Assembly (NCBI GenBank): GCA_033220425.1
Contig: CM065646.1
Span: forward strand, 3,603,501 to 3,667,500
Reading direction: 5' to 3'
Length of the DNA: 64,000 bases
Origin: Lepraria neglecta
Taxonomy: Eukaryota; Ascomycota; Lecanoromycetes; Lecanorales; Stereocaulaceae
Each line of letters begins with the position of its first letter. The stretch's first letter is position 1. The notes below the pieces were generated by a model. That model saw only the letters and a list, made by a program, of their open reading frames with translations. It was not told where the DNA came from and did not search any database. Positions 5,265 to 39,937 of this stretch are shown here, in pieces. Position numbers and translations under genes: made by a program.

Positions 5265-6049
5265 CTAGCTCCCTCCTCTAGATTTCTCGTCCCGAGAAAC
5301 TATCTATCCTTTATACCTCCTCGCTGTACTAAATAATCCTATAATCCTATAATTCGTCACAAAGAACTAGCCTAGGGCTTATCCGAAATTGCTATACGCC
5401 TCTACTCTCGATGCGCCGCGAGTAATAAGTAGTGCCTTATAGGTACTAAGTCCGACTATTATTCTGGCTATATTACTAGAGGTAAGAAATATGACCTTGT
5501 AGTATCGCCTACCGAAATATATTATATTAAAAACGACCGAAAGAAAGTCTAGGGTGAAATAAAAGAAACTTAATCTAAACTATTATAACTATAGAAGGTA
5601 TATAATAAAATCGAAGATTAGAAGTAGAATATCGCGCTTTCCCAAAAGATTATGTCATTAGCGTCACAGCTAGTTTTGCGCTATCAGCAGGCCGTATAGC
5701 GATCAGGGTCTGTATCCTATATCGATTGCGGACCGAGAAATCAGCCAAATTAGCAACTCGAGGTTGCCGACAGTAGTATCTGCAACCTCAAATTGCTGCG
5801 CTGGGCGCCTACAATATCAGCATCAAAAGTTGCTTTCGTGGACCAACGCCACCATTACGCATTTGTTCCGGAATGCGAAACATGTGCGCTTAGGTAGTAT
5901 ATCGACAACATCAGTAGATGAGAAGTCATCCGAGTCGGACAGTTCGGATACATCCTCCGCTGTAGTAGGTATGTTCGAGTTAGATATCTTATCCAGAATT
6001 AACCTGTAGGCAGTATTATCCGAGCTAGGCGATTTTAAAAGACAATACG

Positions 6050-8960
6050 ATAATTATTTTCATATTATACGTTTAATAGCTATATATTCGATTACTAACA
6101 GCTTGATTCCGTCAGGCTTCCTCCCGCCCAAGCTTTATACTCTATCGATCTATCCTCTATCCCCTCCGCAGTATCCTTAGTAGCCTAGTCCTCAGGTTCT
6201 TCTCCTATTAGAATAATATTCAGATATACTATTTTATCCTCTATAATCTACCTCTCTACTAACCTACTCTACTCTTCGACGTCTATAATATAATTCTCTT
6301 CCTAAAGACTCTTATCTACTTATAGGCCGGCCTCCTTCCGTATACGCTCGAAGTCCTATATTAAAAATACCTAGATATCTATTATCTCTGCTAAATTATT
6401 ACTGAAGGTAAGGGAAGCGAAAAAACTATCCTAGTTTCTAAACTCTAAATTGGTCTTATCGAGACCCTCCTCAGGAGATAGTTCTTTAGCCTTAATTTCA
6501 GTGTTAGCCGATAATATATACCTATAATCGCTTCTTATATATACCGTATATTCTTTATTATTTCCGTACCCTTCTTCTTAGCCTATCGTACTAGTATTAT
6601 TTATTCCTATCTCCTCTAGAACGCTCTAAAGGTCCGGTTAATTTTTTAGATCTTCTAGGGAATCCTTAAATACATTAGTAACTGGTAGTCGACGGTTCTT
6701 ACTATACCTATTTATATAGTAATAGTCTATTATTCGACGATAAAGTAGTCCCGTAACTATCCGCGTTTTGATTTCACCTATATTGTACTATACCTCTATT
6801 ATATATTCGAATATAGCTTAAGGTATTATCAGTATATAGGTTATTCTTCGAGTATCAGGTTGACTTACTACTAACTAATATACCGTCCTATCTCTTGATC
6901 CTACGGGAGCTATATTCGTATTCTTCGAATATATAATAAAGCGCTGTTATAACGAAAATAATAGTACTAGCGGGTAAAGGTTTCTATAGATCCGTACTCT
7001 TATGCCTAAGTCTAATAGCACTTATTCTATTAGAAAAAAAAACGCGATATAGACTTATTATAATTATCGGTGCTAGAAAATAACCCTTATCTTAGACCTG
7101 TTAGCTATATATTTCGTTCTCGTTTAGGAAAGAAGAATACTTATACCTTTCTCTAGATCCGCGAAAGTAAATCGTATATTAAATAGTAGGTTCGATATAT
7201 TATTCTTCCGGTCCTCGACTATTAGGTATAGCTATTCTACTACCATTTTAACGGTTAATCTTATTTTCCTTATTATAAAACTTCTGAATTCGCTTAGGCT
7301 ATCTATAAGCTGCGAAGATATTAGCTATTACGCGGCGTTATATAAATAGGTAGGGGCTTAGGAGTAATAACCTTGCGAGCTTCTTTAGGAGTTAGTATAT
7401 TACCTAAGGTATCTAGATCGCTAATAACTTAAGGCCCCTTTATTCTTTAGAGCTTAGCCTTCTATTCTCTCTATATTCTTATTATAAGGTTACTTAGAGC
7501 TACCGGGTTATATTCTAGCTACGGTGATAGGCCATCGGTATCGTTGCCGCCCATAATCTTGGAGAGGAATATAGGCTTCGTTACGTGGAAAATATATTGA
7601 TATTCCCGTGAGGATTGGTATCTTTGCGCTTGGCGACGCCTAGAACTACCCCAAGCGATAGGTCCCGCCGCCTCCTCCGCGGTTACCTCCTTATAGTCGT
7701 CTTTAGATTCAATATCTAATATATATATATAGGTATAGGCAACGAAGTCGATAATAGTCTAGGCCTTGTCTTTTTAGATAATGGAACCCGATTATTAGGA
7801 TTAGATAATCGTCCCGTAGTCGCGGTACTAGAATTCGGCCGCTTACGCCGTGTAGGTGGTGCGGTATAGGTTGGCTATCGCTGCTTATATTGTACTAACT
7901 ATAACGATTAGTTATTATAAGACCTATATACTAAGGTAAATATACTATTAATTCATCCTTCTGTCTGCTAATTAGATTCTCTCTCGATTTTCGATGTTTC
8001 TTACTAGCAGATTTGAACTTATCAGTTATTATCTATTAGGGCGTCTAGGTAGGTCGTCCGGCACGCTGGCCATTCTGCTCTGTATATGAAGATGTTCGGT
8101 TTCGTTGTTCCTGTACCATCAGCTGTTTTAGCTATATTTGATAAACACGCGTCTCTAATTCATTATTTACCGAGCTGCGTAGGTGGTTCCTAGTGTCTAT
8201 ATTCCCTTGAGGACCTTGTTTTATTGTATAGTTCTATATTATTTCCTTCTTTCTATATTAGCGTATTGAATATACGCGTGACGTCGATAGGCAACTTACG
8301 GTCTTCTTTTAGGTAATACTCGTATCGCTTTGCAATACGGTATCGATTCTAGACGTCGATAGCCGCGTCTGTTTACGCTGTACGGTTAATAGGTTATATC
8401 TATTATTATATACTAATCGTACTTATAACGGAGAAGCCCATCTTTTCCGTCTCCTAAATATAGAGTTATCCAACGGACCGAATATAGGAGTATAGGGAAG
8501 TTATACCCCTATAACGATAGCAGGTACTGGTCTCTTCGCAGGGCTGGTTATAGGGTTATCAGAAGATATTTCAATATCCTCGACGCTAGTTATCTTTAAA
8601 GAGACCTCTTCTTTACATATTTTTTTAGAGATATCCTTACTAAGGTTACTATCACGTCTTCGACGTTTCCTAGGCTCTACTACTCCGTCGTCCCCTTCGG
8701 TACTTCTCTTAGATTCTAGCTACCTTTCTTTGATAGCCTTAATCTACTAATATATTAATATATAGAATAAGTTACTCAGCTCGAATCGTACCTTTCGCTT
8801 GTTCGCTTTAGTCTCCTAGGCTTTTCTAGTAGCTACTAGTTATTCTCCCTTTATCTTAGCTATTATTAGAAGATCTCTATTATCTATCTAATATATATAT
8901 AGGTCTTTACTAGTAACAAGGTAGTATAAGGTATTAAGGAGTATAATCCACGATAATATA
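6050..8960 (-). pseudogene. Unrecognised accessory gene region of the Plavaka-like element
   Basis: No intact frame remains, but minus-strand translation shows long protein-like tracts between stops. At about 8720-8560 there is a basic segment with PRKRRRRDS, a likely nuclear localisation signal, followed by acidic and serine-rich sequence; at about 8350-8270 the tract RYEYYLKEDRKLPIDVTRI is legible; at about 7690-7560 the tract SSRRRQAQRYQSSREYQ. These suggest one or two nuclear proteins. I do not recognise a domain. The plus strand is poorer in protein-like tracts here. It could be a second transposition protein, as CACTA elements often encode, or cargo. Boundaries are approximate. Confidence 0.3.
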
Positions 8961-9114
8961 GCTAGTTATAGGTGGCTAGACAGGCGAGGTTCTTAGGGGA
9001 AGAAGGCGAAGGTTTTTAGAAAGGGACAGGCTTCTTTAGCGTATCATTGTCGTATTGTTTTAATTAATATAATATTAATATAAAATCGAGTTAGCTTAAA
9101 GACTATTAACTAAG

Positions 9115-9780
9115 TTGGATAGAAACTTAGCCGAGTCGGATAAAAGTCTATCCGAGTCGAACGAAATTTTCCTACCTTTTCGAATAGATTGCTACCAGGA
9201 CTATATCTCCAGCTATAGTTCTCCTACGCATAACGAATATCGCCGTTTCTTCTATATCCTCGACGAGTACACGCCGCCTCCGCCCTATTGGCCCGGGACC
9301 TTAAGACCTTAGATACTACCCACTCGAGTATCTATCGATGAATACTGGATTCGCGTTAATAATATATACTTTGCCGCCGGCTCTTAAGTTGTACGGGTAG
9401 GATATGGAGTTACGTTATCAGCTTAACCGATTGAATTAGTTCTTCGACTTGGTTAATAATGATTAGATACCTCCTTCTATTTATAACACGTCCTATAAAG
9501 AGAATCTCTACTAGCGGATATATATTGAGTTGGCGGAACTATATCCTCTGTAGCGGCGACGGCGTTTGGATTTGTTGGAGAAGACGAATCTAGGTTGGGA
9601 AAAGCGGCAGGTAGTATTGGCTGGGTCTTTATAGCGGGATTCTGGGATATAAATATTATGTCGGTAACGTTGAGTTGAATAGTATAGTTTCTCTAGTCTC
9701 CAATTCGAACGACGGGGTCTACTATTTATAATATTTAAACTAGTCCTCAAATTTGCTGCTGGCAATACCTATAGGTTGAT
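9115..9780 (+). pseudogene. Unrecognised plus-strand coding remnant inside the Plavaka-like element
   Basis: Opens with a 65-codon frame (9115-9312) rich in serine and acidic residues at the start and reading RRFFYILDEYTPPPPYWPG later. In another phase, about 9380-9660, KENLYQRIYIELAELYPLQR and RRRRLDLLEKTNLGWEKRQV are legible, suggesting an intron or frame loss and a basic helical segment. It lies between the minus-strand genes. Part of the signal could be chance because the first codons overlap the CCGAGTCGG motif that recurs in this element. Confidence 0.25.
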
Positions 9781-9849
9781 TCTGTTATATTATACCTACT
9801 CTTGCTAAGAGCTTTCTATCCGTCTATCTAGATAATAATTGAATTAAGA

Positions 9850-11870
9850 TCCCTTTGCCTCATCTAGAAATACACCGTACTCGTATACCTTCTATCTTTG
9901 CTATTACTACCGAACGACCTACCTATAGTATCAAATCCTATAGCAATTTATCCAGTCCGTATCTATATTCACGCTTCTAGAGGTACGGGTAAGGGTAATA
10001 CCGGTTTCAAGAACGTAGTTCGTAGGGGGAACAAAGTGATGATAGTTGTCTCCTTGGTATATCTGCACGAATAATTCATCTCGTTTCCCGGAAGGTAAGG
10101 CTGAGCTACGCTATAGTCATTTATCAGGATAATACCTTTTAAACTACTAGAGTAAGGTTAGTATAAAGCCAAGGCGAAATAGCAGAAGAGCTATAGACCT
10201 ACTATCGCCAGAATATATATAGTAGTAGATAGCTTAGTAATTATAGACAGTTGTTACGGTCTTCCGACGATATCCTCCCTTAGTTTAACGATTAAATCCT
10301 TTAATATAACTAACTTCGGACTATTATTAATAAAATATTCGATATAATAGATATAAATGCTAGCTAGCGGGTATTCAGTCTAGTCTTCTCTTAGATTAGC
10401 CAACTCTACAAAGTTCGTGCAACCCTTACCGCCGTTATATAAATCCCCCCTTCGAGCTTATCCGTATATAGAGATAGATTATCAAGCCGAGCGAATCCTA
10501 GAAGGCTTGGGACTACAGTAGCGGCGCGTAGTTCATATATACGTTTAAAGTAGTTGGTGGTCGTTGGCGCAGGTATCTCCTTGCTAGCCTTGCAAGCAAT
10601 TGCGTATTATCTAGTATATTTTACTTTCGCTTCGTCTTAGATCCTTTAATCCTCGGCGCGAAGAGCTATATTTTATACTGGCGAAGGCGGGTATATAATA
10701 TAACGAATCTCGTAGGGAGGTAGTTATACCAGATCGGTAGTCCTAGAGATATCTTGAGTGTATAGCATCCGCTTTATATCGATTATCTTCGTCCACTTTT
10801 ATAACCAATTACCTACTACTTTCCCTAGTACGATAGTAAGAACGATACCTAACTTCGCTGCGCTAATATTCTAGGTAGCGCTGTTCTTGACATATAGATA
10901 ACTAATATTCTATTTATAAGCCGATAGATATATATCGTAATAACTCCGTGGCTTTAATCTCTCTAGTAAGAGATGCTTATTATGATAAGGCGACGTTTCG
11001 AATTATTAGATAATTTTGTATATATAGATTTCGATCTAGATGGAGTCGGATATTAGCGTTGCCCGAGTCGAACATCTATATTATCCGAGTCGACCGAGTC
11101 CTTAATAGAAGTAATAATTCAGTTTAGATATCCCTAAACCAGAATCTCGCCCGTCGATAGCTCCCCCCTATTAGAAAGCCTACTATCTTATCCAAGCCGC
11201 GTAGTATAGCTAATAAATAAACGGTACGATCTTCTTTATTTTGCCGTTAGGGGCTATAATAGATAATAACCTACGGAGGTTTCGTGTGTTCTATATAGAC
11301 TGGTTTCCCTTCTGTAGCTGAAACAATAACTCTATATACTACCACGTTTTCTGAGACTATTACGGATAGTCCTCTATCTTGGTTATATTAATACTAGGGT
11401 AGTATTCAGTAGTAAGTAAATAGTAAGGTAGAGGTTGAAGTACTTATATCCTGTCGCGATCCTCCTGTTCTAATACCTCTAGATCTTTCGTAGCTACTCT
11501 AGCTACTACTACCCTACCTATCTCGATATTATATAACTTCGGAACCCTACTATTATAGGCCTTGCTAACCTTTAACGCCTTCTCCTCGTCCTCTTCTATA
11601 GTATCCCCTTCCTCCTCTTACTCCTTCTCTTCCTAATTACTAGTATAGCTACTATTATTTATATCGGAACGGATAAGTATAGAATCGTTTGGAGGCCGGG
11701 TAGGAAATACTACTAGGCTTGCTTGATTAAGGGGGAGAATTCATAAGGCTTTAGGGCGGGGAATTTAGCAGGAGAGGTAGTAGAGTCTTCGCGTAGAGGA
11801 TTCTATATATTATAGGTTATATTCTTAGGTTATACTATAAGAGAAGAATATCTAGCCCGGTAAGGTTATA
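9850..11870 (-). pseudogene. SNF2/helicase-like gene, copy 1 (partial duplicate)
   Basis: Parallels copy 2 at 13.8-16.45 kb: 9930-10630 matches 13830-14500, 10735-10900 matches 15303-15460 and 11150-11530 matches 15760-16110, the last nearly identical over long runs. The part equivalent to about 14645-15303 is absent, so the central motor motifs were lost by an internal deletion of about 0.65 kb. Legible minus-strand tracts include KASKEIPAPTTTNYFKR and RAATVVPSLLGF, which correspond to the same places in copy 2. Heavily mutated by RIP-type changes. The copy lies in the same orientation as copy 2, some 4 kb away, so it arose by tandem duplication or by nested insertion of a related element. 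Confidence 0.5.
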
Positions 11871-12029
11871 TAGAGGTATAATAGGGATAGTAATAATAGG
11901 AAGAATAAAATACGAAGAAGTAGAGGCCCTTCGCTAAGTTAGAACGAAGAAGAATACTAGAGTACGTAATTTAGTAGTATCGGCGTACCGTAATTAACTA
12001 GGTTTACTAATATACCGCGGAAACGGATA

Positions 12030-12900
12030 TAAGGTATACCTATTGTTCAATATTTCACGCGGGCCCGCTATTTTACTAGAGTATAGTTAGTAGGAGTATA
12101 ATCGAAGCAAAGTATAAGATACGTACCTCGTAGGCGCGTCTTAATATGAAACGAGATAGGATTCTCGCCTATATTATATATCTGCAAGGTAGCCGCCTTG
12201 AATTTGCGGGCGTGATTAACTTCGATATCGTTTTTGCTAATATAATAAAGAATTCGGTCGGTCGAGCTATTATAGATACTATCCTTATATAAGACCTCTT
12301 TAAATATTCTAAATTCGATCTCGTCTAATATAATACTAGCTAGAGGTTTTTTCTCCTTAATAATATCGGAGGCGAAGAAAAGTATATTCGCTGTTATCTC
12401 TGTTAACTGGATATAGAATCCTATTTCACCGAAGGTAAGCGGATACGCTATATATAGAGTACTATCCGTAGAGAGAGACGGTACGGTACGCCTTCTACGA
12501 TTACGATAGTAATTATAGGTATTATTAATCTTTCTAGCTATACCTAATTTGTAACTCTCCAGCTAGGGTTAGGGGATTCTAGGTATGAAAACGGAGGGAA
12601 ATACTATTTCCAACTACTATAAGGCGTCGCCGAGTTTGGCCTAGTTCTCCGGTATCCCTAGGGACATGCTAATAATATATCTCCTTTCTATCTCTTTCTT
12701 TAATACTACTCGAATCTCCTTATAGTAGGCCTATTCGACTATAAGGCCACGCGAAATAACTGAGACCGTCCAATTCCTAGGGTTAGTATTTTCGTAGAAT
12801 TCGGTAGAAGGTAAAGAGGCTAGAGAGGAGGGGAAAACGTCGGCGGCGATAGCTACGGGCTCGTACCGGTGTTCTATAGCGGGTATATATATAATATATA
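12030..12900 (-). pseudogene. Unknown accessory gene of the Plavaka-like element
   Basis: Minus-strand translation stays protein-like for about 290 codons with only a few stops, all explicable by RIP-type changes. Legible tracts are HRYEPVAIAADVFPSSL, NPRNWTVSVISRGLIVEQAY, FGEIGFYIQLTEITANILFF, LASIILDEIEFRIFKEVLY and NPISFHIKTRLRGTYLIL, then a stop near 12040. No known domain is recognised; there is no transmembrane segment or cysteine cluster. It lies between the two helicase-like copies and could be the N-terminal part of the copy 1 protein or a separate gene. The coding signal is the best preserved among the unknowns in the nest. Confidence 0.4.
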
Positions 12901-13799
12901 GAGTGTCGATCGATATATTAGTAGTAAGAGAAAGGAGTATAGGAAAGGATTAAAAGGTCGATATATAATATATAAAGAATAATTCCGTACTAAGCCTATA
13001 GTAATTAGCGTGTAATAAGTAATATCCGACTCGAATACCAAGTATATCAAGCGCTATTCGACTCGGATATCGAGAGTTATTCGACTCGAATACTATCTAA
13101 TACTCGATATTATTCGACGCGTAGGCTGTTCCCTATATAGTATCTATATTGAGTACAGGTATAACTACTTGACTTTCGAGTAGATTTCTCCCTTTATTTA
13201 ATAATAGTCTTAGTTAAAAGAGTCTATATTAATAGAAGGGTATTATAAGGAAGATCGTAACTTAAGATAATATATTACAAAGGAGTATAGTAGCGTATAT
13301 AGTTCGTATCAAATACGATTACAATCTAGTAAGTTAGGGCTATAAATTATATTCCCTTTTACCTATAGCTTGTATTTAGTATATAAGTATATAGTATATC
13401 TAGATTTTGGTAGCGGATATTTAAGGAAGACTATAGCGCGAAATATCTACTAAAGATAGGAGAAAGCAAAGGGGAATAGCTAGTAATCTAAGTACTTTCA
13501 AGTCTTCCCGAACTAGTATAGATTAGATTTAATATTACTATAGAAGGGTAATAAGAGTCTTATATCTATCTTATACAAAGTTAAAGTACCGCTAAGTAGA
13601 AGAAAAGAAACCTGTAAAAGCGCGCTATTGCTTAGCTAGAAATATCTAGCTTATTTATACGCCTATTACCTCGTTATATTATCTCTACTCTATTTAAATA
13701 ATACCTTCTAATCTACTCTATATTTATCGTCCGTAATGAAGTAGTAGTTATATATCTTTAGATTTCGCTGAGATAACCGAACTACCCGCCTATCGCACT

Positions 13800-16450
13800 G
13801 AATATTATAGAATTGTATCTAGTCTATATCTATATTCATACTTCTGAATATATAGGTTAGGGTAATACCAGTTCTAAGGATACGTTTTATAGAGATAAGG
13901 AAGCGCTTATCATCCTCTTCTTAGAATAGCTATATATATAACTTATCTCGCTTCTCGGAAGGTATAGTCGAGCTATACTATAGCTATTTACTAGGAAAAT
14001 GCTTTTTAAACTACTAGAGTAAGGTTAGTATAAGGTCAAGGTAGAATAGCGGAAGAGATATAGACTTACTACCGCTAGAATGTATACGATAACAGGAGAA
14101 CTAGTGAATATAACCAGTTTCTCTAGTCGCCCGTAGATATCTTCCCCTAGTAAGCCGATTAACTCTTTAAGTTTTACTAACTTCGGTATATTACCGGTAA
14201 GTTTATCGATATATTTAGTATAAATACTATCCAGCGGCATCTTGGCCCAATTCTATATTAGGCCAGCTAACTCTGCAAAATCTATACAACCCTTTCCGCC
14301 GTTATATAAAGGCCCCCCTTTAAGCTCGTCCTAAGTAAGAGTAAGGTAGTTATACCGAGAGAATTCTAGAAGGCTTGGGACAATAGTAGCAGCGCGTAGC
14401 TTATAGGCGCGTTTAAAGTAGTTATTGATCGCTGGCGTAGGTATCTCCTTACTAGCCTTACGAGCAATTGCGTATTCTCTAGTATATTCGGCTTTTACTA
14501 TATCTTGGATCCTCTAATCCTCGGCGCGAAGAGCTGCCTTTTACTCTAGATTAAGCAAGTATATAATATAACGAGTCTTGTGCGGAGGTAGCTTAACAAG
14601 CTCGGTAGTCCTATTAATATCTATAGTTATAGGCGTCCGCTTGATTTCGATAGAGTTCAAGATAGCCTTTATATCTGCGATATTCTTGTTATTCTCGCTC
14701 TTATTAACCGGATTCTTTCGCTTTTAGTAGCTAGCGGTTAGTTTCCTAACAACCTCGACTTCGTCGTAAGTTATATATCGATACTCTTTAACGGCGTACT
14801 ACTAAGGCTACTCGATTATATAGATTATAGCTGAGTAGTTAGTTAGGTCGCGTATCTATAGTATAGCAGAGAAACCCTATATCTAGGGTAAAGATAATCG
14901 GTATGTTTTTATACGCCGATTATCTATAGTATTCTACTCGTTCTCGTTATCCTCTAGTATTTTTACTAGGACTCGGGCACTAATCTTATCCTTGATACTA
15001 AGGACTATCTTAGGATATTCACCCTTTACTATCCTTATCTTATAGAATTCGTTAATAAAGATCTAGCCGACACGGAAGTTATAGACGAATAGAGACTCAG
15101 AGTCCTATAGTACTTCCTTGATATACCTATTATACGAGCCCTTAGTTATAAGGAGTAGAATATACTCCTATCTAGGTTTGGGTTTTCTATCCTTTTCATA
15201 TCGAAGTAGTTTAGTATTTTCCGATATAAGTAGGGTAGCGTTAATATTATTGTATATTTTGCCTATATAGGTATAGAAGTACTATAGCTTCAATATTGGA
15301 TATTGAGTATTAATCATCTTCGTCTACTCTTGTAACTAGTTACCTATTACTTTCGCTAGTATAATAATAAGAATAATACCTTACTTCAGTGCGCTAGTTA
15401 AATAGGCGGCGCTTTTCTCGATACACGGATAACTAATATCCTATTTATTAGCAGAGGGATATATATTATTACCGCTCTATACCTTTAATTTCGAGGGTAG
15501 GAGATACTTAGTATAATAGATTGACGCTTCAAACTATTCGAGATTTTTATAATCCTACTTACGTATTTCGAAAACCTCGCGCTATCGCAAGGAGAGTTAA
15601 TACTCGAGGATATATATAACAAAAATCATTAGAGTCTAGTTCGAGTCGGACATTAGTATTGTCTAAGTCGATAGTAGGTTTCATTAAAAGCTAGGAATAG
15701 ATACGAACCTTGCCAAAGCCGGGATCGTCCCTATTAATACCCCCCCTGCCAGTAAGCACGCCGGCGTATCCAAGCAGCGTAGTAGAGTTAATGAATATAT
15801 AGTATAATCTTTTTCATCTTGCCGTTAGGGGCTATAATAGATAATAACCTATAGAGGGTTCGTATATTCTTAATAGACTGGTTTCCCTTCTGCAGTTAGA
15901 ACAATAACTCTATATACTACTACATTTTCTAAGACTATTACGGATAGTCCTCTACCTTGGTTATATTAATACTAGGGTAGTATTTAGTAGTAAGTAAATA
16001 ATAAGGCAGAGGCTGAAGCACTTACATCCTGTCGCGATCCTCCTATTCTAATACCTCTAGATCTTTCGTAGCTACTCTAGCTGCTACTACCCTACCTATC
16101 TCGATATTATATAACCCTGGAGTCCTGCCTATATAGGCCTTATTAATCTATAACGCCTTCTACTCGTCCTTATCTATCAAATCCCCTTCCTTTCTATTAT
16201 TCTCTTCCTTATTATTTATACTACTACTACTATCCGAGCTAGAGCTAATATCTATAGGCTCCTTTAGATTCCCGGTAGACGGACTAGTATACTTATTAGT
16301 AAGAAGGGAAGGATCGACGAAAGGCTTTAGGGTAGAGGGTTTAGTAGAAGAGGTAGCAGAGTCTTTGCCTAGAGGATCCTATATATTAGGGGTTTTCCCT
16401 TTAGGTTCTACTGTAAGAGAAGAATGTTTTAAGCGGTAGGAGAGGGTAAA
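13800..16450 (-). pseudogene. SNF2/DExH helicase-like gene, copy 2
   Basis: Minus-strand translation from high to low coordinates gives, in order, a Walker B-like block IFINEFYKIRIVKGEYPKI (about 15070-15010; the ancestral form was probably DEFHKIR), ELVKLPPHKTRYIIYLL (about 14600), a helical block KASKEIPTPAINNYFKRAY (about 14450), LEKLVIFTSSPVIVYIL (about 14120-14070, the start of the helicase C domain) and KRFLISIKRILRTGITLT (about 13900-13840, like motif V, GTGLTL, of SNF2 proteins). The order and spacing fit an SNF2-family ATPase. A clear Walker A GKT is not visible, so ATPase activity of the ancestor is not certain. Neighbouring minus-strand coding signal continues upstream to about 17.3 kb. 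Such motors remodel chromatin or unwind DNA; within a transposon a role in transposition or target access is inference only. Confidence 0.5.
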
Positions 16451-17310
16451 ACTACCTCGGTAAGGTTGATTTAGATAGGCCGTATTGCCCTCGATAGATA
16501 CTATTATACCTATTAGTTAATATCCTAACTATTAATTGATATAGTATAACTAACGGAGTGCCCCTTGTACGATACAAAGCTCGTAGCGCCGGTAACCACG
16601 TGAATATATGTCGCAGATAGTATTTTGTAGATCTTCGTTTATAGTTACCTCTATAATCCTATTAGATATATAGATAATAGTGCTCCCCCGGGCATTATCT
16701 TCGGCGGTCTAGAATTTCTTGGTTTCTAGGAACTAGATCAGAGTATCGTAACTAAGTTGGTCCTAGAGCTGGTTGGCGTTAGTAAGCGAAGTATTACGTA
16801 TAATATACTATAGTTAGACAAGATAGAATTTATTATCGCGCGTATAACCGATTCTAAGGATAATATAAGGTAGGTAGGTATCGTCTAGGGCTGGAGCTAG
16901 TACGAAGAATAGTCCAGTGTAATCGGGTTACTCAGTACAGGTATTATCGTATCTAGGCTTTTTTAAACTAAACGAGTCGTAAGACTCCTCTAAGGGTCGT
17001 TTACTAGTATATCGGTTAGCTACTCTAGGTACTTTATTAAGTAGTCTTACGAATATACGTATTGCTTCGTCTCTGAAAGGTAGTATATAGTCGGGTAGAA
17101 TAAAGTTAGTAGTAACGGAGTTGAGGACCTTGGTGAAGTCCTGGCCAGAACCTTGAAGATTTTCGCCCCAAATAGCGGCACCCCGTAGGCGGTCTTTAAG
17201 TACTTGACGGAGGGTATTAAACAAGCTATTACTATACTATAAGCCTCTACGGATATTAGGGAGGTTCTATAGGATTCCAGGCGGATTACTAGACTTTGGC
17301 CTGCCAATAA
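16450..17310 (-). pseudogene. Upstream coding part of the helicase-like gene or separate gene
   Basis: Two overlapping open stretches remain (16928-17224 and 17047-17307). The 98-residue frame reads LRQVLKDRLRGAAIWGENLQ and later FRDEAIRIFVRLLNKVPRVA, ending with KRPLEESYDSFSLKKPRYD, a basic patch like a nuclear localisation signal. Coding character continues down to 16450 (tract LCIVQGALR) and joins copy 2. Copy 1 lacks the matching part. No domain was recognised. Confidence 0.35.
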
Positions 17311-18239
17311 GCGTATAGAAATTGGCCTCGGTTGGCGCAGGCTCTAGCGTTATATCGACCTGAGGGTCGATTAGAGAAGGACCGGCTATATTAGATAATA
17401 TTATAGATAATTCTAATATATCTATAATAAGAAGAATAATAATAGGACGAATAAAATAGGGAGAAGTTAAGGATTCTTCGCTGAGTTAGAGGGATAAAGC
17501 GGGTAATACGACTAGTAGGGTCCACACCGGGTTTTTATTCATAATAGCGATTAGTCGGTAGTTAGTAAATATAATACTAGTAAGGTAAATACGTTACGAA
17601 ACAGTTTAATACTTAATATAATTGGGTAATATAGACCCTTCTCTATAGAATAGTACGTTAGAGTAGTTATAAATAGGTGAGTTTAGCCGTCGAAAGATTG
17701 AAAGTAGCGAGCTTTAATATAATAGATAAAGATATTGATTAAAAGCGGAACTTATATATATATAGTATATAGAAAGCGAATAGCTGATTTCAAACGTACT
17801 ATATCTAGCTTTATACTTAATACCTAATATCTAGTAAAGATAGAGTATCAAAACTTATTATCTGCTCGTAAAGATTAATTAGATTTCTTCTTCCGTTCTT
17901 CGAAATATAAGTCTTAATTAAGTACTCTATTATAAAAATAATCCAAGTTCGACTCGGACGTACATTTTAGTAATAAGGGCATGTACTACAAGGTTTATAA
18001 CTAATTATATTTCCTAATAAGACAAGTAACCGGGGCGTTTATTAAATATATTATATAGAAAGAAAATCCCCTTAAACTATCTATTAATCAACGCCTTCTA
18101 TAGGACGATACTCTACTATACGTATATTATAATTTAATTAATAGTAATAGTTAAAAACAGGCTATATAAGGCGACGTAAGGATAGATTTATCCTAACCTA
18201 TAGCGGGTTAGCTTGAAGGATCTAGTAGCGAATATATTT

Positions 18240-21200
18240 ACTAATACCTGCCTAGACGTGTTGATCTCGATAATAACACCTCTATATTACGCCTGAGCCA
18301 GATAGATCGACAGTGTAAACGTTGCCAGAAGTAGTATAGTAGTAGAAGCGGCCTAACTAGGTATCTACCACGCTATAAGGGCCGGGACCCCAATTGGACG
18401 CGTAGGAGACAGGTACACCTCGACGAAGATAAAGTCAAGGGCCCCATTCATGAACGCTAAAGAGACGAGGTTAATATAATCGGTAATAGTCCCTGTAAGG
18501 GCGAAGGTAGATAAGTCCCCTAGGAGGACCTGACTATTTTAATAGATAACGATGCTCTAGGGCGATTACTTGAACTCACCGACTCTACTAACGAGATCTG
18601 GTACTAGTAAGATAAGCTAGATATAGTACTCGATTAATCGAAGTCGATAACAGCGTCAAGTACTATAGGCACTATCTCTACCTTGACCGTTAGCTCTATA
18701 GAGTACTACCTATAGGAGCGAGGTACCGGGAGGCCTTTAGAGGAAGAGGATATAACCCTGGCCGAGTCGTTATCCATGCCCCTGTCTGAGTTGATATCCG
18801 AGTTAATACCCGAGTCGAACCCGGACTGGCACCCTTTCTATTTAGAAGCTGATTATACCCTAGCTTTATAGATGTATAACGCCCGACTATCTAGCGGTAT
18901 AATAGACAATTTCTTTAAAGATACTCGATTACGACCTTTCCACGGACCCTATAGCTTTAACAGCGCTCTATAACTAAAAGCCAAGCTATATACTATAAAG
19001 TATTCTGCTGCTGCTAGTAGATAGTCTCGGCAAGCGTTTAGTATCCTATCGATTCAACCGGACAAGACGACTAGAATATATTATATACTCTACTTCGATA
19101 TAATAGGTATAATACGAACTCTCATCGGATATAAACCTTTTAATTCGAGTATTAACTATATACTAATACACTAGCGAAACCTCGACAGGGGTCTAATTAT
19201 TAGTAAGATATATATAGCCCGCTAGTAGTAGGAGACACAAGATAAGCTCCCTAATAGCTCAATAGTAGTACCGGTTATAATATCGTTAGATAAGACCCAT
19301 TTATTACGGACACACGGAGATTAACAGGCGTAGCCAGTCTATATTACTATTGGTAACCTCGATCGAGGTATTCGGCGGGTACAGGTTCGGCCGGGGATAA
19401 TATTGCTTAGACTAGTACCATTAGTCTATAACAGTGTGAAAGCCGAGGTATATTACTACGCTATAGGGCTTATAGTCGAGGGTAAGCCGGCCGAAATACG
19501 GATCTTACTTAATATACTAATAATATTCTTTTAAAGTACTTAAGGAGCTGGCGCCGAAGGGGATCCTTATTATATATATAGACGGACGAATACGACAATA
19601 CTACCCAATACTCGTGTCTATACTAGGTAACTACGAGGAACAAGTTTTAATAACCTCGATTAAGAGTAGTAAATACTATCCGGTCTACTTAGTACCGCTA
19701 AATAAATAGGAACGACTACGTCCTGAAAAACCGTATCCAAAGTAAATACCTAAATAGACTATAGAGTAGTTATAGATGCAAAAAACGTACGATAAGAATA
19801 CGCCTAGGGTGTTACTAGATATAATAGTATATAACCGGCCTAACTTCACAGACGGCTACTTCGCAGTTAACGTCTACCAACTATAGACGTTTAATATATT
19901 ATACTAATTAATGGTTAAAGGGCTATTAAACTACCTCCTGGACTAGCTTAGGGAGTATATCGGAGAGGGACGAATAAAGCTTAAGGTATAAGCCTTAATC
20001 GACGCCCGGTTTCGAGCTATACCCAAATTTACTAAGCTAAGGTAATTTCGGGAGTTTAGTAAGCTAAGCTAATAGATAGGAGAGGAGAGTAAAGAGATAT
20101 TATAGATTATAATACCCGTCTTCGCTCCTCTATTATCTAAAAAAAACCTAGATATACTATATACGGGACGAGCTATTATTGACTTTATTATACTTATAAG
20201 ATACTAATCCTACGACGAAGTAATACTAGAATATATGAACGCAGCGTTAGAAAGGATTAATCTACTCAAGGAGGTATTTTGAAAATATAGGCCAGTTAAT
20301 AAGAAAACGGGCGAGCAAACTTTCAACTTTCCCAAATTCTATAGTATTAGTTATTATATTAATATAATTAGATACTACGGTCCGCTAGATAGATATAGTA
20401 CCCAAGCCTCGGAAAGAGTATATCTAATATTACTAAAGAATTACTATAACTGAACAAATAAGTATAAGGATTACTAGGAGCAATTAATAGAATATAACGA
20501 ACGCTATATCAAGTTAATAATTATATAGGATATTAAAAATTTCTAAGAGACGGAGCCTATATCACTTAGTTAGAGGAGAAAACAAGAAGACGAGAAAAGT
20601 ACAAAGGCCGGGGTCCTCCTAGATCTATACTAACTAGGATAGCGAGTAGACGCAGAAGAGCGCTATATATTAAGACACCTATATAAATACGATAGTCGTT
20701 ACTGGCGAACGGCGAGAGATATAGCTAAATGGCTAAATATAGCTGGGTTTCTCTAAAGCCTGGCTGCGTTTCTTAAGGCGTACCGAGCGAAAATGCTAAG
20801 CAGAGGTAGTATAACCTCGAACCTAGATATCGACAGAAGGGAGGCAGACTGTAGCTGGGTTAAGAGCTACCCGGTCTATATCTATTCGGGCCTCGTATAT
20901 TAGAAGACTATAGGAGAGGACTCCTCTGATTTAGGACGTCTCTATAAGGATTTAGTAGTCTATAGACCTTATAAATATTCGCAGTATTTTACCTAGCGTA
21001 GAGATTATATATAGGTCCGAGAATAAGACTATAAGAGTCGAAACCCGGAAACTATATAGGAGGGAAAGTTAGTCGGTAAGGTCTTAGTCGTCGTAGAGGT
21101 AAAGGATCTTAGTAATAGGGACTTTAAGCAACGACCTACTCGTATATAGGCTGCCCTTATAGAAGTCTTTAATTATCGATATCTAGGGTAGGTATAAGAC

Positions 21201-21540
21201 TACTATAGAATAGTCGAAGTTAAAAAGGTATAGGTGTCGCTTATACTTAATCCTCGAACGATAGGCGCTCGCCGCTTCTATAGACTACTAAATATCGAGC
21301 GAAGTACTTATCTAGTACCGGGAACAGTTAGAGGAAAAGAGATATTCTATATTAACAGTTTCATCGACTAGGACTAATATACTACGATATATCACCCCAA
21401 ATTCCTAATAAACAATTCTAAGGCAGCGCGACGAATCTACGCCAAATTCCTACCAAATCCTTCTTAGGTAACGCTATAAACCTAAGTAAAAACCCTTAAA
21501 AGGAAGAGAGATAATACTATAAATATATCTGGGTCGATAG
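18240..21540 (+). pseudogene. Plavaka-type transposase with N-terminal zinc finger
   Basis: Plus-strand translation across stops shows, in order: a C-x2-C zinc-finger start (CKRCQK at about 18325) with SSRSGLTRYLPRYK, where the His has become Tyr; DNFFKDTRLRPFHGPYSF (about 18900); VVPVIMSLDKTHLLRTHGD (about 19270-19320) and PVYITIGNLDRGIRRVQVRP (about 19335-19395), the block with the catalytic Asp region typical of Plavaka transposases (usually SSDKTxLT...WPVYLTIGNI); DARFRAIPKFTKLRQFREFS (about 20000-20060, with RIP changes); and the C-terminal domain NPRTIGARRFYRLLNIERST (about 21250-21310). That order is the one known for Plavaka, a fungal CACTA relative. About 1000 codons. Inactive because of many RIP-type stops. 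Confidence 0.65.
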
Positions 21541-22579
21541 AGCGGAAGAGACACTACTACTGACTACCCTCGCTATATCTAAAGTCAAGGCTTTAGTCTT
21601 AACGAAAACCTCTAATATAAAGAACCAACCTACAGTTTCAATTACTATAGCGGTATTAATCCTCTCTTCGGCATATTTAATTATAGCTATATCACGTTAG
21701 CAGGCTATATAGTATCTTGCGCGTACAATATTTGCTTACTTCAGTATCGAGTCTACGGCCCTCGCACGTTACTAATATTCGGGTACTTCGGTAAGCTGAG
21801 GAGTAGGGAGGTTATTAAGCTCGCGGTATCGTATATAAAGTCTATCGGGGAAGACAGGGAGTAAATTTGTCGGATATTAAGTATCTATAGCGACACTTTA
21901 CTGAAATAATAGCGACGAGACCGTAAACTACGAGAAGAAATATTAAGAAATGTCTAGCCAAATATTCATCCGACTCGGACAGGGTAAACCTGAGTTGGAT
22001 ACCACTCGGACAGTATAAAACCCGAGTCAGACACTACTCGGATAGTATAAAACCCGAGTCGGATACTAATCGGACAAGGGCAAAAAAGGGTGAAATATAT
22101 GCGCCCCTGATCTACTAGAGTTTTGCCAGGTGCCGCTGATAGTTCGGTGACTAGGCGTCGCAACTCTCTATCTCGGTTATTTACTCGAATTGTAAGGAGT
22201 AGAAGATATAGTCGGATTGGCGGATAATAGGTTGTTATAGAATCGAGGAAAGTATAGTTAAATAACCCGTGAAGAAGTTGAAGAAGGATTAGTATGAGCG
22301 CGAGTTAAACTTATATTGATATTACTAATAACGAGCTTTTATATACTGAAGGAGCTGTTAGTAGTAGCTATATTTCAAACGGATTATATATATGGAAGAC
22401 TTTATTTAGATTCGACTACCTACTTATACCTTGCATAGAAGATATATAGCCACTAATTAGTAGAAATATATAGACTATATAAGAAGTAATCAATCATAAT
22501 AAAAGAAAACTGGCAGCTATATATTAGCAGCGTTATATTATTGATTGAGCTGATAGCTAGCTGAACGCATAATGGACAT

Positions 22580-22699
22580 GCTAATTGGTTAGACATTACA
22601 CTAACAGTAATATCTAATTGCTAATTAGTTAGATATTATACTAACAGTAATATCTAATTGCTAATTGGTTATATATTATACTAACAGTAACATCTAATT
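22580..22699 (+). repeat. Three 40-bp tandem repeats near the right end of the Plavaka-like element
   Basis: Units at 22580-22619, 22620-22659 and 22660-22699 start GCTAATT(G/A)GTTA and share ACTAACAGTAA; a fourth, diverged half-unit follows. CACTA-type transposons have clustered subterminal repeats that bind their transposition proteins, and this array, about 170 bp from the terminus, is in the right place for such a role. Confidence 0.75.
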
Positions 22700-22866
22700 G
22701 CTGACTAACCTAACATCGTTAAATCAGCAGTATTGAGTTGCAGATCGAGCTGATTTGATACTATTAGTAATATTGAGTTGCTGATTCCGCTGAACGTAAC
22801 TGTCAGCCCTACCGGCGCGCTCGGCAACTCGGGATTTCCCAGCAACTTTTGGGAAAGCGCGATGAA

Positions 22867-25800
22867 GATCGTAGAGCGAGAACTCTAGAATATTAGGGAG
22901 TTAGAGGAAGATCAACGAACTTCCCCCTAGTTCTCTAATAACCTTATATTCAACGTTAGTTCCGAGTAGTTCGACCTCCCCCCGGCCTAGAAGGCCCCGA
23001 GAGTTTCGACTAGTCTTCTCTTGTTTCTAATAGAACTCTTAGAGACGTTCCCTATAGTTCCCCGCAAGATTCCTAAGAGGTTCCCAGGTATTCTCCGTTT
23101 CGTTATACCCTTCATCGCGCTTTCCCAAAAGATTATGTCATTAGCGTCACAGCTAGTTTTGCGCTATCAGCAGGCCGTATGGCGATTAGGGTCTGCATCC
23201 CATGTCAATTGCGGGCCGAGAAATCAGCAGGATCAGCAACTCCGGGTTGCTGTCAGCAACTCCAAGTTAACCAAGCAGCACCTAAAAATCATCCCCGAAG
23301 TCATACGACCGCGCGCAATGATTACGATACTGCGACGCTACAACTAAACCCCTAAGGTCGCTGCGAATTTCACCCCCGTGAGGATTTAGGCCCAATCGCA
23401 CGATTCCGGGGTCCGTTTTCAGCTGGTGTTGATAGTGCTCCGGGGGAGTCGCTGCCGTCGATGGCGACGATCATAGAAAATCGACCTTTTGCTTAGTCAT
23501 CAATCACGTGATTTACTGAATGCTTACTGATCCTGCTGATCCTGCTGTTAGCAAGCCGGAGTTGCTAAATGCGCTGAAATCGCGCTGTTAGCGGGCGCTA
23601 TTTGCTGATTGCGCTGAAATCGACCCATCAGCGGGCGCTATTTGCTGATCCTACTGATAGGCTAATTTCAGCCCTATCCGCGCGTCCAGCAAATCAGAAG
23701 TTTTCAGCAAGATTTGGGAAAGCGCGATGTTTCTATTTAACTAGATAGAACTAATTTCTTCTATCTAGGATCCTCTCGACCTTATACTCTATTTCTTCCT
23801 TAATATTATAATAAAACGTTTCTTAGAGTAGTATATTAGAGTCTACTAGCTCTAGGAGTAAGATATAGAATACTAGATATACCTTTACGTCAGGTAGAAG
23901 TTAGAGTTTATAGTTAACTAGTCCTTTTATCCGTTTAATCAAGAATAGTCTAACCTTAATATAATCTAATTTCTTACTTAGTCTTATTATCCTTATATTT
24001 TTAGTTAGGAGGTATACTTTATCCCCCTCTTTTAGATAAGGAATATTCTTTCTTTTCTTATTAACTTATTCCTTTAATTTCCTATTAGAGCTCTTAATAG
24101 ACCTTTATATATCCTTATATAAATTCTTTAGCTCTACTACCTTAACTAAGGCTTTTTCTATATTAGGTCCTTCCCTTAGTAGCAGAAATATATTAGTATT
24201 CTTTCTATAGTTAGTAAAGAATAGGGTTAATCCTATTATATCTAACCTCTTATTATTATATACTAGTTATACTATTAGAAGTAGTAAAACCTAGTTATCT
24301 TATTTCTAGTTTATATAATATCTTAGGTATACTTCTATTATTTAATTTACACGTTCTATTTATCTATCTATCTATAGGTAATATACTATTAATATCCGAA
24401 GTTTAGTTCTAATTACTACTATTAGCGTTTTCTAGTAGTTAGAAGTAAATAACTTATCTCTATCGAATATTATTGATTTAGGTATACTATAATCTCTTAT
24501 TAGCTTGTCGAGTAGTATAAAGGCTAATTAATCTGCCTTATAGGTTTCCTTGAATAGTATTATAATTATATACTTCGTTAGTTTATCTATAATAACTATA
24601 ATTAAGTTAAAGGAATCCTATATAGCTAGGTCCTTTAATAGTAGTAGTTTAACTATAAAGTCTATTATAATATTATCCTATAGTAATTCTAGTACAGGAG
24701 TAAACTATATTTGCCTATACTTAGTATATCGTGCCGCTTTATTCTACTAGTACTGGATATATTCTTTAATATATTATTCAACGCGCGCTCGAAGTCTCGG
24801 CGCCGCGTATCCCTATCCTAGGAGTTCTATCGTCTTAGATACTCCTAGGTAACCTTATAACAGGTCGTTATAGTAATCCCTAATTACTTCTTTAACGTAT
24901 ATATTAGGTAAGTAAGTTTTATCCTAGTATTTAAGCAATACCGAATCCCGCTAATCCTTTTATAGGTTTATTATAAATATATTATTATTATAGGCCTTTA
25001 CGATTCTATTAGTCATATCAGGTCCTAATATACGAAGGGTCGCTACTAATACCTAGTATAGTACTAGTAATCCGTCCGCTTCTTTCTTTAGGATTAGTTA
25101 TTCTATAATATTCTTTTCTTCTATATAGTCTAATCGCCTACTAAGGGTATCTACTCGACTATTATCTTTTCCTAGGGTATAGGTTATTTTAAACTTATAT
25201 TAACCTAGTAGTTCTAACTATCGAACCTATCTTCTATTTAACTCTTTTATTATTATAAAGTTAAGAAGGTTCTTATAATCCGTAAAGATAGTTAAATCCG
25301 AGCAGCTCTCTACGTATACTTGCCAGTTTTATAATATATATACTATAGTAAGTAGTTCCTTGTCGTATATATTATAATTCTATTCTACTACTAATATCTT
25401 CCTTGAATAGTAGATAACTAGATACTACTTTTAGTCTTTCATTTAATATAGGTATACTCCGATTACAAGATCCGATATATCTATTTTAATACAAGCTAGC
25501 TCGTTTATCTAAAAGGTATAGAGTACTAGTAGATCCGTATATACTTTCTTTAATATATCGAATAATCTTTATTAGTCTTTTCCCTATATAAATCTAATAT
25601 CTTTCTTCGTAATATCTATTAAGGGTAGTACTTTCTTGGAGTAGCCCTCGATAAACTTCCTATTAAAGTTAGCAAAACCTAAAAAGCTTTATACTACTTT
25701 AACGTCCTATAGTATAGGCTATTCAGCGATAGCTTTAATCTTTTCTAGGCTTATACTAATACCTTTCGTACTAACTATAAATCCTAGAAATTCTACCGCT

Positions 25801-34200: not shown

Positions 34201-37038
34201 GAGTATACTTAGATCGAACAGCGATAGTATACCTCGATAATATACTAATTTATTCTAAGAATAAGAAAGAGTATATTAAGTATATATAGGACGTTATCAA
34301 ATACCTATTATAAGCGAAACTTCTTCTTAAACCGGAAAAGTGCGAATTCTATAAGGAATTAGTAGAATTTCTAGGATTTATAGTTAGTATAAAAGGTATT
34401 AGTATAAGCCTAGAAAAGATCAAGGCTATCGCTAAATAGCCTATACTATAGGACGTCAAAGTAGTACAAAGCTTCTTAGGATTTGCTAACTTTAATAGGA
34501 AGTTTATCGAGGGCTATTCCAAGAAGGTACTACCTTTAATAGATATTATAAGGAAGGATATCGGATTTATATAGGGGAAAGACTAATAGAAATTATTCGA
34601 TATATTAAAGAAAGTATATATAGATCTACTAGTACTCTATACCTTTCAGGCTAACGAACCAGCCCGTATTAAAATAGATACCTCGGATCTTGTAATCGGA
34701 GTATACCTATATTAAATGAAAGACCAAAAATAGTATCTAGTTACCTACTATTCAAGGAAGATATTAGTAGTAGAATAGAACTATAATATACACGACAAGG
34801 AACTACTTACCGTAGTTTATATATTATAAAACTAGCGAGTATATATAGAAAGCTACTCGGATTTAACTATCTTTACGGATTATAAGAATCTTCTTAACTT
34901 TATAATAACGAAAGAGTTAAATAGAAGATAAGTTTAATAGTTAGAACTATTAGGTTAATATAAGTTCAAGATAACCTATACCCTAGGAAAGGATAATAGT
35001 TAAGTAGATACCCTTAGTAGACGATTAGACTATATAGAAGAAAAGAACGTTATAGAATAACTAATCCTAAAGAGAGAAGCGGACGGATCGCTAGTACTAT
35101 ACTAGGTATTAGCCGCGACCCTTTATATATTAGGACCTAATATAACTAATAGGATCGTAAAGGCCTATAATAATAATATATTCGCAATAAACCTACGAAA
35201 GGATTAATAGGATTTAGTATTACTTAAATACTAGGATAAGACCTATTTACCCGATATATACGTTAAGGAAGTAATTAGAGATTACTACAACAACCCTTTA
35301 TAAGGTTACCCTAGAGTATCTAAGATAATAGAACTCCTAGAAAGAGGATACGCGGCGCCGAAGCTTCGGGCACGCGTTAAGCAATATATTAAAGAATATA
35401 TCCAGTACCAGCAGAATAAGGCGGCACGATACGCCAAGTACGGGCAAATATAATTTACGCCTATACTAGAATCACTATAGGATAATATTATAATAGACTT
35501 TATAGTCAAGCTACTACCGTTAAAGGACCTAGCTATATAGGATACCTTTAACTTAATTATAGTCATTATAGATAAACTAACGAAGTATATAATTATAATA
35601 CTATTTAAAGAAACCTATAAGGCGGATTAGTTAGCCTTCGTACTACTCGATAAACTAATAAGAGATTATAGTATACCAAAGTCGATAATATCTAATAGAG
35701 ATAAGTTATTTACTTCTAACTACTAGAGAACACTTATAGCAGCAATTAGAACTAAACTCTAGATATCGATAGTATATCACCTATAAACTAATAGATAAAT
35801 AGAACGTGCTAATTAGATAATAGAAGTATATCTAAGATATTATATAAACCAAAAACAAGATAACTAGGTTTTACTACTTCTAATAGTATAGTTAGTATAT
35901 AATAATAAAAGGTTAGATATAATAGGCCTGATACTATTCTTTACTAACTATAGAAAGAATATAAATATATTTCTATAACTAAGGGAAGGACCTAATATAG
36001 AAAAAGCTTTAGTTAAAGCTAAAGAGCTTAAGAATTTATATAAGGATATATAAAGTTCTATTAAAAGCTTAAATAAGAAGTTAAAGGAATAGGTTAATAA
36101 GAAAAGAAAGAATATTCCTTAGCTAAAAGAGGGGGATAAAGTATATCTTCTAATAAAAAATATAAGGATAATAAGACTAAATAAGAAACTAGATTATATT
36201 AAGGTTAGACTATTCTTAATCAAACGGATAAAAGGACCAGTTAACTATAAACTCTAACTTCTACCTAACGTAAAAGTATATCCGGTATTCTATATCTTAC
36301 TCCTAGAGCTAGTAGACTCTAGTATACCTCTCTAAGAGATATTTCACTATAATATTAAGGAAGAAACAGAGTATAAGGTCGAGAGGATCCTAGATAGGAG
36401 AAATTAGTTCTACCTAGTTAAATAGAAAGGGTACGATAAAACGGAAAGTACCTAGGAACCTCTTAGGAACCTTGCGGGGAACTGTAGGGAACGTCTATAA
36501 GAGTTCTATTAGAGATAAGAGAAGACTAGTCGAAGTTCTCGGGGGCTTCTAGCCCGCCGGGGAGATCGAAGCGCTCGGAGCTAACGTTGAATATAAGGTC
36601 GTTAGAGAACTAGGGAGAAGTTCGTTAATCTTCCTCTAACTCCTTAATATTCTAGAGCTCCCGCTCTACAATCTTCTGCTTCTAATCTTTAATCTTATTA
36701 TATACCTTCTGCAGTCGCAGTAGTTTAGATTAGGTTTCTTTTATTTCACCCTAGACTTTCTTTCGGTCGTTTTTAATACGATATATCTTAGCGGGCGATA
36801 CTACAAGGTCGTATTTCTTACCCCTAGTAACGTAGCCAGAATAACGGTCGGACTCAGTACCTACGAGGTACTATTTACCGCTCGTAGTATATCGAGAATA
36901 GGGATGTATAGTAATTTCGGATAAACCCTAGGCTAACTCTTTATGGCGGATTATAGGATTATAGGATCGTTTAGTATAGCGAGGAGGCATAAAGGACGGA
37001 TAGTTTCTTAGGACGAGAAATCTAGAGGAGGGAGCTAG

Positions 37039-37461
37039 TATTAGAACTAGTAGGTTCTAATAGGACTGTCCTATAGGACAAGGAACTATAGATAGAACTA
37101 GTAACTAAAGCGATAGGCGTAATAGACTTAGAGCGACCATGGCGACCAAGAATAATGGGCGTAATGGGCTTAGAGCGACCATGGCGACCAAGAAAGGCTT
37201 GGCAGGATTTCCTATTGCTATATATACGAGCACTTGCTCATCACTTGGAGTATTGTACTTAACTTACTTCTGTTTTTATATAGTACCTACTATATACGAT
37301 AGATCTCTTAGGCTAGGCACTGAACATATATATCATCCGATTATATACCAGACCCGCTTAGCATTACTTGAAGCCTGCTTCATACTCTTGCTCTATTGTA
37401 TACCTATCCTAGTGAGAATCAATCTACACTATAACCACCGCACGCAACGTGGTTCGTAACA
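37039..37461 (+). repeat. 3' LTR of gypsy copy B
   Basis: 423 bp, ending GGTTCGTAACA just before target duplication CCCGA. It contains a tandem repeat of the block GCGACCATGGCGACCAAGAA that is single in the 5' LTR. Confidence 0.85.
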
Positions 37462-37616
37462 CCCGAGTGCTCCGGTCGATTATTGAACATCAAAAAAAAT
37501 CATATAGGGCTGAAAACACGTGACTTGGCCCGAGGGGCGCCCGGGGCGCCTTGGGCCCCCGAAGCAGCTCGCGCTTTGGCCCGGGGGTGCTGGGGCCGGG
37601 TTTGATTTTGCCGACG

Positions 37617-39757: not shown

Positions 39758-39937
39758 GGGCGGTGGAAGGTCGCTATATAGGGGTATAGTGGGGGGCGAC
39801 AGCGAGGTTTAGGCGACGGGGGACGTGGCAATTAGGGCTAGGGCTCTGAATAGTAGCTACACCAAGCTATAGAGTCATGATTTCCTTTTTGGGAAGCTTT
39901 ATAATGCTCAATATGGTAGAATAACAGATACCTTTCA

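Follow-up and report, generated by a model that had tools for sequence, protein, structure and literature searches.

The window analysed here is a stretch of 64,000 nucleotides of Lepraria neglecta (contig CM065646.1 of assembly GCA_033220425.1, positions 3,603,501 to 3,667,500 of the forward strand), and we note that its positions 5630-22864 (+ strand; 17,235 bp) make up an entire DNA transposon, which has inverted ends and a target-site duplication of 2 bp and has been altered by repeat-induced point mutation (RIP). We read it as a cut-and-paste element with several genes that belongs to the En/Spm-like Plavaka lineage of fungi and is most likely one of the reported Entons, with a probability of roughly 0.8, and it is probably to be filed as an Enton-like Plavaka element. 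The 17.2 kb form one unit, in which a transposase of Plavaka type is joined by an SNF2-like gene and its truncated paralogue, by a DUF6532 gene and by further open stretches. The kind of element is not categorically new; the best value of this study lies in its sequence-level anatomy and in a bold candidate link between a palindrome and an intron.

Ends, target site and copies in the genome

The boundaries are set by the ends, the target-site duplication, an empty site and 16 copies of intact length. The terminal 14-mer CATCGCGCTTTCCC matches exactly at 22851-22864 (- strand), the right terminal inverted repeat, and with one mismatch, a transition (T for C), at 5630-5643 (+ strand), the left one; the termini read CATCG..CGATG and are flanked by AA at 5628-5629 and at 22865-22866. 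Across the genome surveyed, a 42.0-Mb assembly of 11 contigs, the 14-mer has 158 exact occurrences (80+78), compared with 0+0 for its reversed control. The joined flanks of the element align across the junction to window positions 36687-36628, where a single AA stands, and this empty site sits in an 86%-identical copy of the repeat that hosts the element. An earlier, sequence-only reading of the window had proposed both the matching inverse ends and an AA duplication confirmed by an empty site in a related repeat, and on both counts it was right. In 12 full-length copies that were fetched, the 2-bp duplication is exact in nine (AA twice, TA four times, and AT, TG and TT); in one further copy the two sides differ by a transition, and in the last two they are unlike.

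Because the left and right 20-mers differ at their last base, ends can be paired. Both were scanned genome-wide and partners sought within 45 kb, the window's own left end (one mismatch) being entered by hand; the left 20-mer is also that of the short copies described below. Partners were found for 34 of the 46 right ends. Sixteen of the pairs span 17,180-17,287 bp, and each of these (16/16) holds a Plavaka transposase match together with an SNF2-like match on the opposite strand, 3.41-3.51 kb away, as the earlier claim of one element between one pair of ends had foreseen. That reading had named as the contrary outcome copies with the same ends and only a transposase, the helicase-like genes lying elsewhere, and no clear transposase-only copy was seen in the 34 pairs. 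One pair, 5.7 kb long, has a Plavaka match and no SNF2 match; it is read as a pairing artefact, its left end belonging to a 577-bp short copy. The longer pairs look like copies carrying insertions. At C2:4601444-4635882 and C5:1967490-2001931 (~34.4 kb each) a full-length pair lies within another pair, as if a copy had been inserted into a copy.

With lengths of 17,180-17,261 bp, the 12 fetched copies align collinearly at a mean identity of 0.928, and their differences amount to 80,440 transitions versus 902 transversions. Of the 3,385 columns that vary among the first 11 copies, 3,041 show C/T or G/A exchanges at CpG, CpA or TpG, and RIP indices are extreme in the fetched full-length copies. 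All 12 read as RIP-mutated, and because the longest stop-free stretch per copy is 126-216 codons, none exceeding 216, they have very probably been disabled by RIP. Of the copies read, the one least affected by RIP, C9:51171-68350 (copy n), was used for read-through gene and motif analysis; it is located on a contig of 101,624 bases.

Similar ends also bound much shorter copies. Picked by eye from the first 100 of the 158 listed ends, at least 13 short pairs measure 557-625 bp, and three of these were read. They have 146 bp in common with the full-length left end (90-91%) and, at the right end, 88 bp at 73-75% plus an adjoining 36-bp piece (~106 bp); they show no RIP (GC 0.51-0.53), and the internal palindromes of the long element have 0 sites in them even at two mismatches. 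One, at window 23113-23729 (617 bp), has the target-site duplication TT/TT, and it is RIP-free though only 248 bp from the heavily RIP-mutated 17-kb copy. From the shared ends, the same transposase may have moved these short derivatives; if so, the ends suffice in cis, the internal genes and palindromes are dispensable in cis, and the helpers would work in trans or by influencing how the element itself is expressed, though the unshared middle of the short copies could still matter.

Genes of the element and their linkage

The Plavaka transposase gene probably extends over 18221-21476 (+ strand). Within it the Plavaka family PF18759 matches at 19055-19423 and 19530-19925, with 60.0 and 28.8 bits in the window copy against a cut-off of 26.3, the two pieces falling in different frames in the scanned copies. 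Among database relatives, P0004 shows 89% identity over 87% of the transposase query and is present on five ENA contigs, P0005 (1,052 aa; 221.1 bits for PF18759) is 52% identical, and P0007 from Letharia columbiana 51%, while basidiomycete proteins are 25-29% identical. The C(2)C and H(3-4)H motifs that precede the last catalytic E in Plavaka are, by eye, CPTC and HSISH in P0005; copy n keeps HSISH and has no cysteines at the CxxC position.

On the minus strand, the core of the SNF2-like gene (14031-15566) is 73% identical to residues 1-512 of the database protein P0002, with 20 TAG and 3 TAA codons within it. Upstream lie a putative 73-bp intron within the Walker A motif (15636-15708, splitting GK|T; recognised by eye, its length and place computed) and a probable exon, perhaps 15709-16477, with motif Q and the first half of Walker A. 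The minus-strand read-through of copy n finds P0001 (69% identity over 54% of the query, E 8.5e-234), and P0001 as query finds P0002 (79%) and P0003 (41%). All three pass the PF00176 cut-off of 24.9 bits (25.5, 30.0 and 39.6 for P0001, P0002 and P0003), and by eye the open frames of P0001 and P0003 start just past the position of the Walker A intron. The read-through of the fetched copies gave one weak SNF2 match to Pfam (11.8 bits, E 0.13) or none, and scanning the SNF2 read-through against NCBIfam and Pfam produced no match to SNF2 that could be used, so the SNF2 assignment rests on the open relatives. The profile searches suggested by the sequence-only reading bear out the Plavaka type of the transposase in the window copy itself, and from the element's own SNF2 read-through they yielded 11.8 bits at best; the minus-strand SNF2-like genes which that reading had seen are vindicated through P0002, itself above the PF00176 cut-off. 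A run of G just ahead of the SNF2 Walker A (window ~15735-15750) measures 6 to 9 bases, with 10 of 12 copies readable.

A truncated SNF2-like paralogue lies at 10442-11017 (- strand). It matches P0002 residues 306-419 and 7-88 and is without 89-305 (motifs II-III), the part bearing the DEFH and SAT motifs, and similar rows recur genome-wide; judged by its motifs it would lack those of an ATPase, and it could act as a regulator.

The earlier reading also spoke of unknown accessory genes. One turns out to be DUF6532-like (PF20149; 28.1 bits, cut-off 24) with its match at 6915-7103 (- strand), in a gene that probably occupies ~6109-8922. The others are a gene of a second module without assigned family, with a 164-aa open piece at 12068-12562 (- strand) and a probable extent of ~12013-12962, and an open stretch upstream of the SNF2-like gene (16537-17354, - strand), which is either a separate gene or the N-terminus of that one. 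Neither ~12013-12962 nor 16537-17354 has a Pfam match in copy n, and neither was given a protein-database search of its own; the density of fixed stops by frame is a rough gene guide only. A 336-bp piece at C1:3520114-3520449 is 87% identical to the DUF6532 region and stands apart from any full copy in the 20 kb read.

Linkage between the two main genes was tested with 58 of 84 Plavaka rows (26 second-half rows dropped) and 45 of 112 SNF2 rows, the 67 dropped being truncated-paralogue rows and other partial fragments; 84 of 167 candidates of the P0002-based genome search had been scored. An SNF2-like match on the opposite strand lies within 25 kb of 42 of the 58 first-half Plavaka matches, at 3,415-3,510 bp in 28 cases, and 40 of the 45 SNF2 matches have such a transposase partner.

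A comparable arrangement is seen in two other Plavaka families of this genome, whose transposases are 28-31% identical overall to that of this element. Family 2 (C8:168001-186500; transposase 28% identical) has a collinear SNF2 match on the opposite strand (23% identity over 339 columns, E 3e-4 without composition correction) and, by eye, a Walker A stretch, a motif VI resembling RIGQ and another SNF2-like stretch, which is shorter; at its far end is a DUF6532 match (48.7 bits; E 1e-6 versus copy n). Family 3 (C2:5952001-5968000; 30%) has an SNF2-like stretch on the opposite strand (E 5e-4 versus P0003 and 8e-5 versus copy n, likewise uncorrected), and because its DUF6532 match is on the other side of the transposase the order of DUF6532 is not conserved. 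For another family 3 copy, at C6:1703525, 6.6 kb were read; they include an insertion and gave no match to SNF2. The evidence is weaker in families 2 and 3 than in family 1, that of the present element. Since the SNF2-like stretch holds a similar divergent position in all three families, it looks like a lasting part of these elements and not random cargo. A gene without Pfam match is common to family 3 (C2:5962160-5962633) and to a further Plavaka family (C5:3422364-3422840; 33% identity over 159 aa, E 2e-17).

Transposition of the En/Spm type is DDE cut-and-paste. Here the transposase would cut at the ends and make the duplication, and the SNF2-like protein may be an ATP-driven DNA or chromatin motor that aids the element's expression or its cutting in silenced chromatin.

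Several points weigh against reading the element as an Enton-like unit of this kind. The case for an Enton depends on one sentence in each of two papers (PMC3520738 and PMC3627910). Every full-length copy read is broken, 12 of 46 right ends have no partner, and neither gene was found in two of the pairs, one of 19.6 kb (C1:1357535-1377168) and one of 3.5 kb; 16 of the 58 Plavaka matches tested have no SNF2 partner within 25 kb, and the 6 kb read of the Plavaka family at C5:3423943 gave no match to SNF2. Pfam support for SNF2 stays below cut-off in family 2 (only PF00271, 12.4 bits) and in family 3 (PF00271, 23.2 bits versus 23.5; PF00176, 16.7 versus 24.9), and the BLAST E-values of these families (3e-4 to 8e-5) carry no composition correction. 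The linkage of SNF2 and transposase is known from this genome, P0001-P0003 having been taken as proteins alone. A search of solved structures with P0001 gave no match, nor did the other solved-structure searches, and the AlphaFold model of P0002, with a mean pLDDT (the model's own per-residue confidence) of 35, was set aside for fold searches; because this prediction is poor, it is Pfam scores and motifs recognised by eye that support the SNF2 fold. P0003, finally, reads N-E-F-H at motif II, so ATPase activity is uncertain in some of the relatives.

Palindromes, the putative Walker A intron and rival explanations

A palindromic word, CGAGTCGGA, was noticed by eye and then counted, with 23 sites (at most one mismatch) in copy n against an order-1 background with a mean of 3.25 and a largest value of 8. 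When all 1,024 palindromes of the form 5+S+5 were ranked in copy n, TCCGASTCGGA came first with 11 sites (at most one mismatch), ten shuffles giving maxima of 3-6; in the RIP-damaged window copy its 9 sites fall within the shuffle maxima of 6-12. Family 2 has another palindrome, CTTGGSCCAAG, with 12 sites, tied with an AT palindrome (shuffle maxima 4-9), and cross-counts of the two between families 1 and 2 are 0 and 1. Neither palindrome occurs in family 3, and a motif of its own was sought there and none found. In an open search of GC-containing 9-mers, each palindrome word was the most dispersed of its own element, with seven clusters in family 1 and five in family 2 (8 copies); the best 9-mers elsewhere reached five in a gypsy-like stretch (5 copies), four in family 3 and four in window 37000-54000. 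Because the gypsy-like control also reaches five, only family 1 exceeds the controls by cluster number.

The palindrome recurs in mostly noncoding clusters, with one cluster in coding sequence. Within the window these lie in the left subterminal region (5929-5986), upstream of the DUF6532 gene (9111-9162), upstream of the second-module gene (13018-13093), upstream of the transposase (17942-17962) and downstream of it (21962-22064), and motif-like sites occur in a low-complexity stretch of the transposase coding sequence (18777-18819). A motif-like cluster at 15633-15673 (one-mismatch sites in copy n) falls in the putative SNF2 intron, and another at 11034-11094 in the truncated paralogue, at the place that matches this intron. 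The intron would start right after the GK of Walker A and end before the T; it would be 73 bp long in copy n, and its counterpart in family 2, at 91 bp, holds an exact palindrome site. The gene was read by eye, and its splicing is putative. Genome-wide, TCCGASTCGGA has 333 sites compared with 35 for its reversed control, many of them outside the element family, and CTTGGSCCAAG has 52 compared with 5, in family-2 copies and scattered singly. An unrelated repeat at C1:3523978-3538861 has five exact TCCGASTCGGA sites in 20 kb, with similar surroundings.

What, then, are the extra genes and the palindromes for? The SNF2-like and other genes might be captured passengers with no part in transposition, and the numerous short end-only copies, from which the genes seem dispensable in cis, would accord with this. 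However, the SNF2-like stretch keeps its divergent position across three families with transposases only ~30% identical, and DUF6532 recurs alongside, though on the other side in family 3, so that we hold simple cargo to be quite improbable; of the cargo-bearing or multi-component forms that the sequence-only reading had offered, the multi-component one is better supported, by three families. Copies inserted into copies, as at the C2 and C5 loci above, raise the further thought that the helicase genes form a separate transposon which has come to lie inside a Plavaka element by chance. Most SNF2 matches pair with a transposase match, though, and it is the near-constant spacing and the presence of both matches between one pair of ends in all 16 intact-length copies on which we reject this nesting as extremely improbable.

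Alternatively, the palindromes might be sites for a host transcription factor that several transposons use as promoters, with the SNF2-like protein working independently. TCCGASTCGGA has the CCG-N3-CGG form of zinc-cluster factors, which we count in favour of a host factor, as we do its presence in the unrelated repeat; the different palindrome of family 2, again in the Walker A intron, suggests instead coevolution within the element, and we regard the host factor as a tenable if doubtful explanation. A contrasting proposal is an anti-silencing system, in which a protein of the element would bind the palindromes and recruit the SNF2-like motor to keep chromatin open, much as in VANDAL/VANC of Arabidopsis, where the VANDAL21 motif is located in noncoding DNA, in introns and upstream regions, according to the relevant passages of PMC5735166. 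The top rank of TCCGASTCGGA in copy n (best shuffle 6), the tie for the top in family 2 (best shuffle 9), the unmatched dispersal of each word in its own element, the presence of both palindromes, or near forms of them, in putative introns that split Walker A at one and the same place and their lack in the three short copies read would all fit such a system. Against it stand the many genomic sites outside the family and in an unrelated repeat, the single scattered sites of CTTGGSCCAAG, the unexceptional count in the window copy, the lack of either motif in family 3, a cluster number in family 2 no higher than in the gypsy-like control, and the cluster within coding sequence; on balance we consider anti-silencing of this kind unlikely.

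Nonetheless we speculate, while rating it as rather unlikely, that Plavaka/Enton elements may carry a self-contained, sequence-specific control, each family having its own 11-bp palindrome between genes and in the Walker A intron. A bound element protein would direct the SNF2 motor to open chromatin against silencing, or would tune SNF2 expression, and such a control would be a separately evolved fungal counterpart of the VANDAL system.

Relation to Entons and other known systems

The sequence-only reading knew of no described Plavaka element with an SNF2-like companion, but a kind of element like this one has been described. A 2012 meeting report on work by Kapitonov states that fungal Entons and Intons, derived from En/Spm and IS3EU, code for five to six proteins (PMC3520738), and Bao and Jurka in 2013 mention that they carry an SNF2 helicase (PMC3627910), both in brief statements. 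The present element resembles Entons, as far as these statements go, in its fungal host, its several proteins, its SNF2-like helicase and, going by the likeness to EnSpm described for Plavaka transposases (PMC12730594), probably its transposase lineage; four of its genes are supported (transposase, SNF2-like, truncated SNF2-like and DUF6532), with two further open stretches without Pfam match. The likeness is one of description and covers neither the ends nor the DUF6532 gene, the SNF2 duplication and the palindromes, and no fuller account of Entons and no report of Plavaka with SNF2 was found among open-licence papers.

PlavakaB as described by Kojima in 2025, in the passages that concern it, has ends CATCA..TGATG and 2-3 bp duplications, and the same text notes the similarity of Plavaka transposases to EnSpm (PMC12730594). 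Our element shares with it a PF18759 transposase, CA..TG ends starting with CATC and a 2-bp duplication, and differs in the fifth terminal letter (CATCG..CGATG) and in its SNF2-like and DUF6532 genes; 'SNF2' occurs 0 times in the main text of that paper. Some fungal DNA transposons of this group carry TET/JBP genes, again by that account (PMC12730594), and they are alike in bearing a gene for a chromatin or DNA modifier, whereas the helper here is an SNF2-like motor. Pfam scans of copy n that covered most of the minus strand, both strands of the left third and the plus strand over the transposase gave no TET/JBP match, though RIP damage could hide one. Elsewhere, Plavaka and DUF6532 are listed together among domains of two Ganoderma genomes, in the relevant part of PMC8955403, and a review of fungal DNA methylation describes DNMT5, in a passage on that enzyme, as an SNF2 fusion (PMC13297926). 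The VANDAL/VANC system of Arabidopsis is similar in having a short motif in noncoding regions and helper-gene introns that differs between families (PMC5735166, same passages), and unlike ours in superfamily; the motif described here is an 11-bp palindrome in small clusters and is not family-confined.

This study ties the PF18759 transposase family to the hardly documented Entons and supplies exact ends, gene order, copy data and a testable palindrome. The retention of an SNF2-like motor over deep divergence suggests chromatin access as a limit on DNA transposition, and fungi, which have RIP and heterochromatin, would be a good setting in which to test such a limit.

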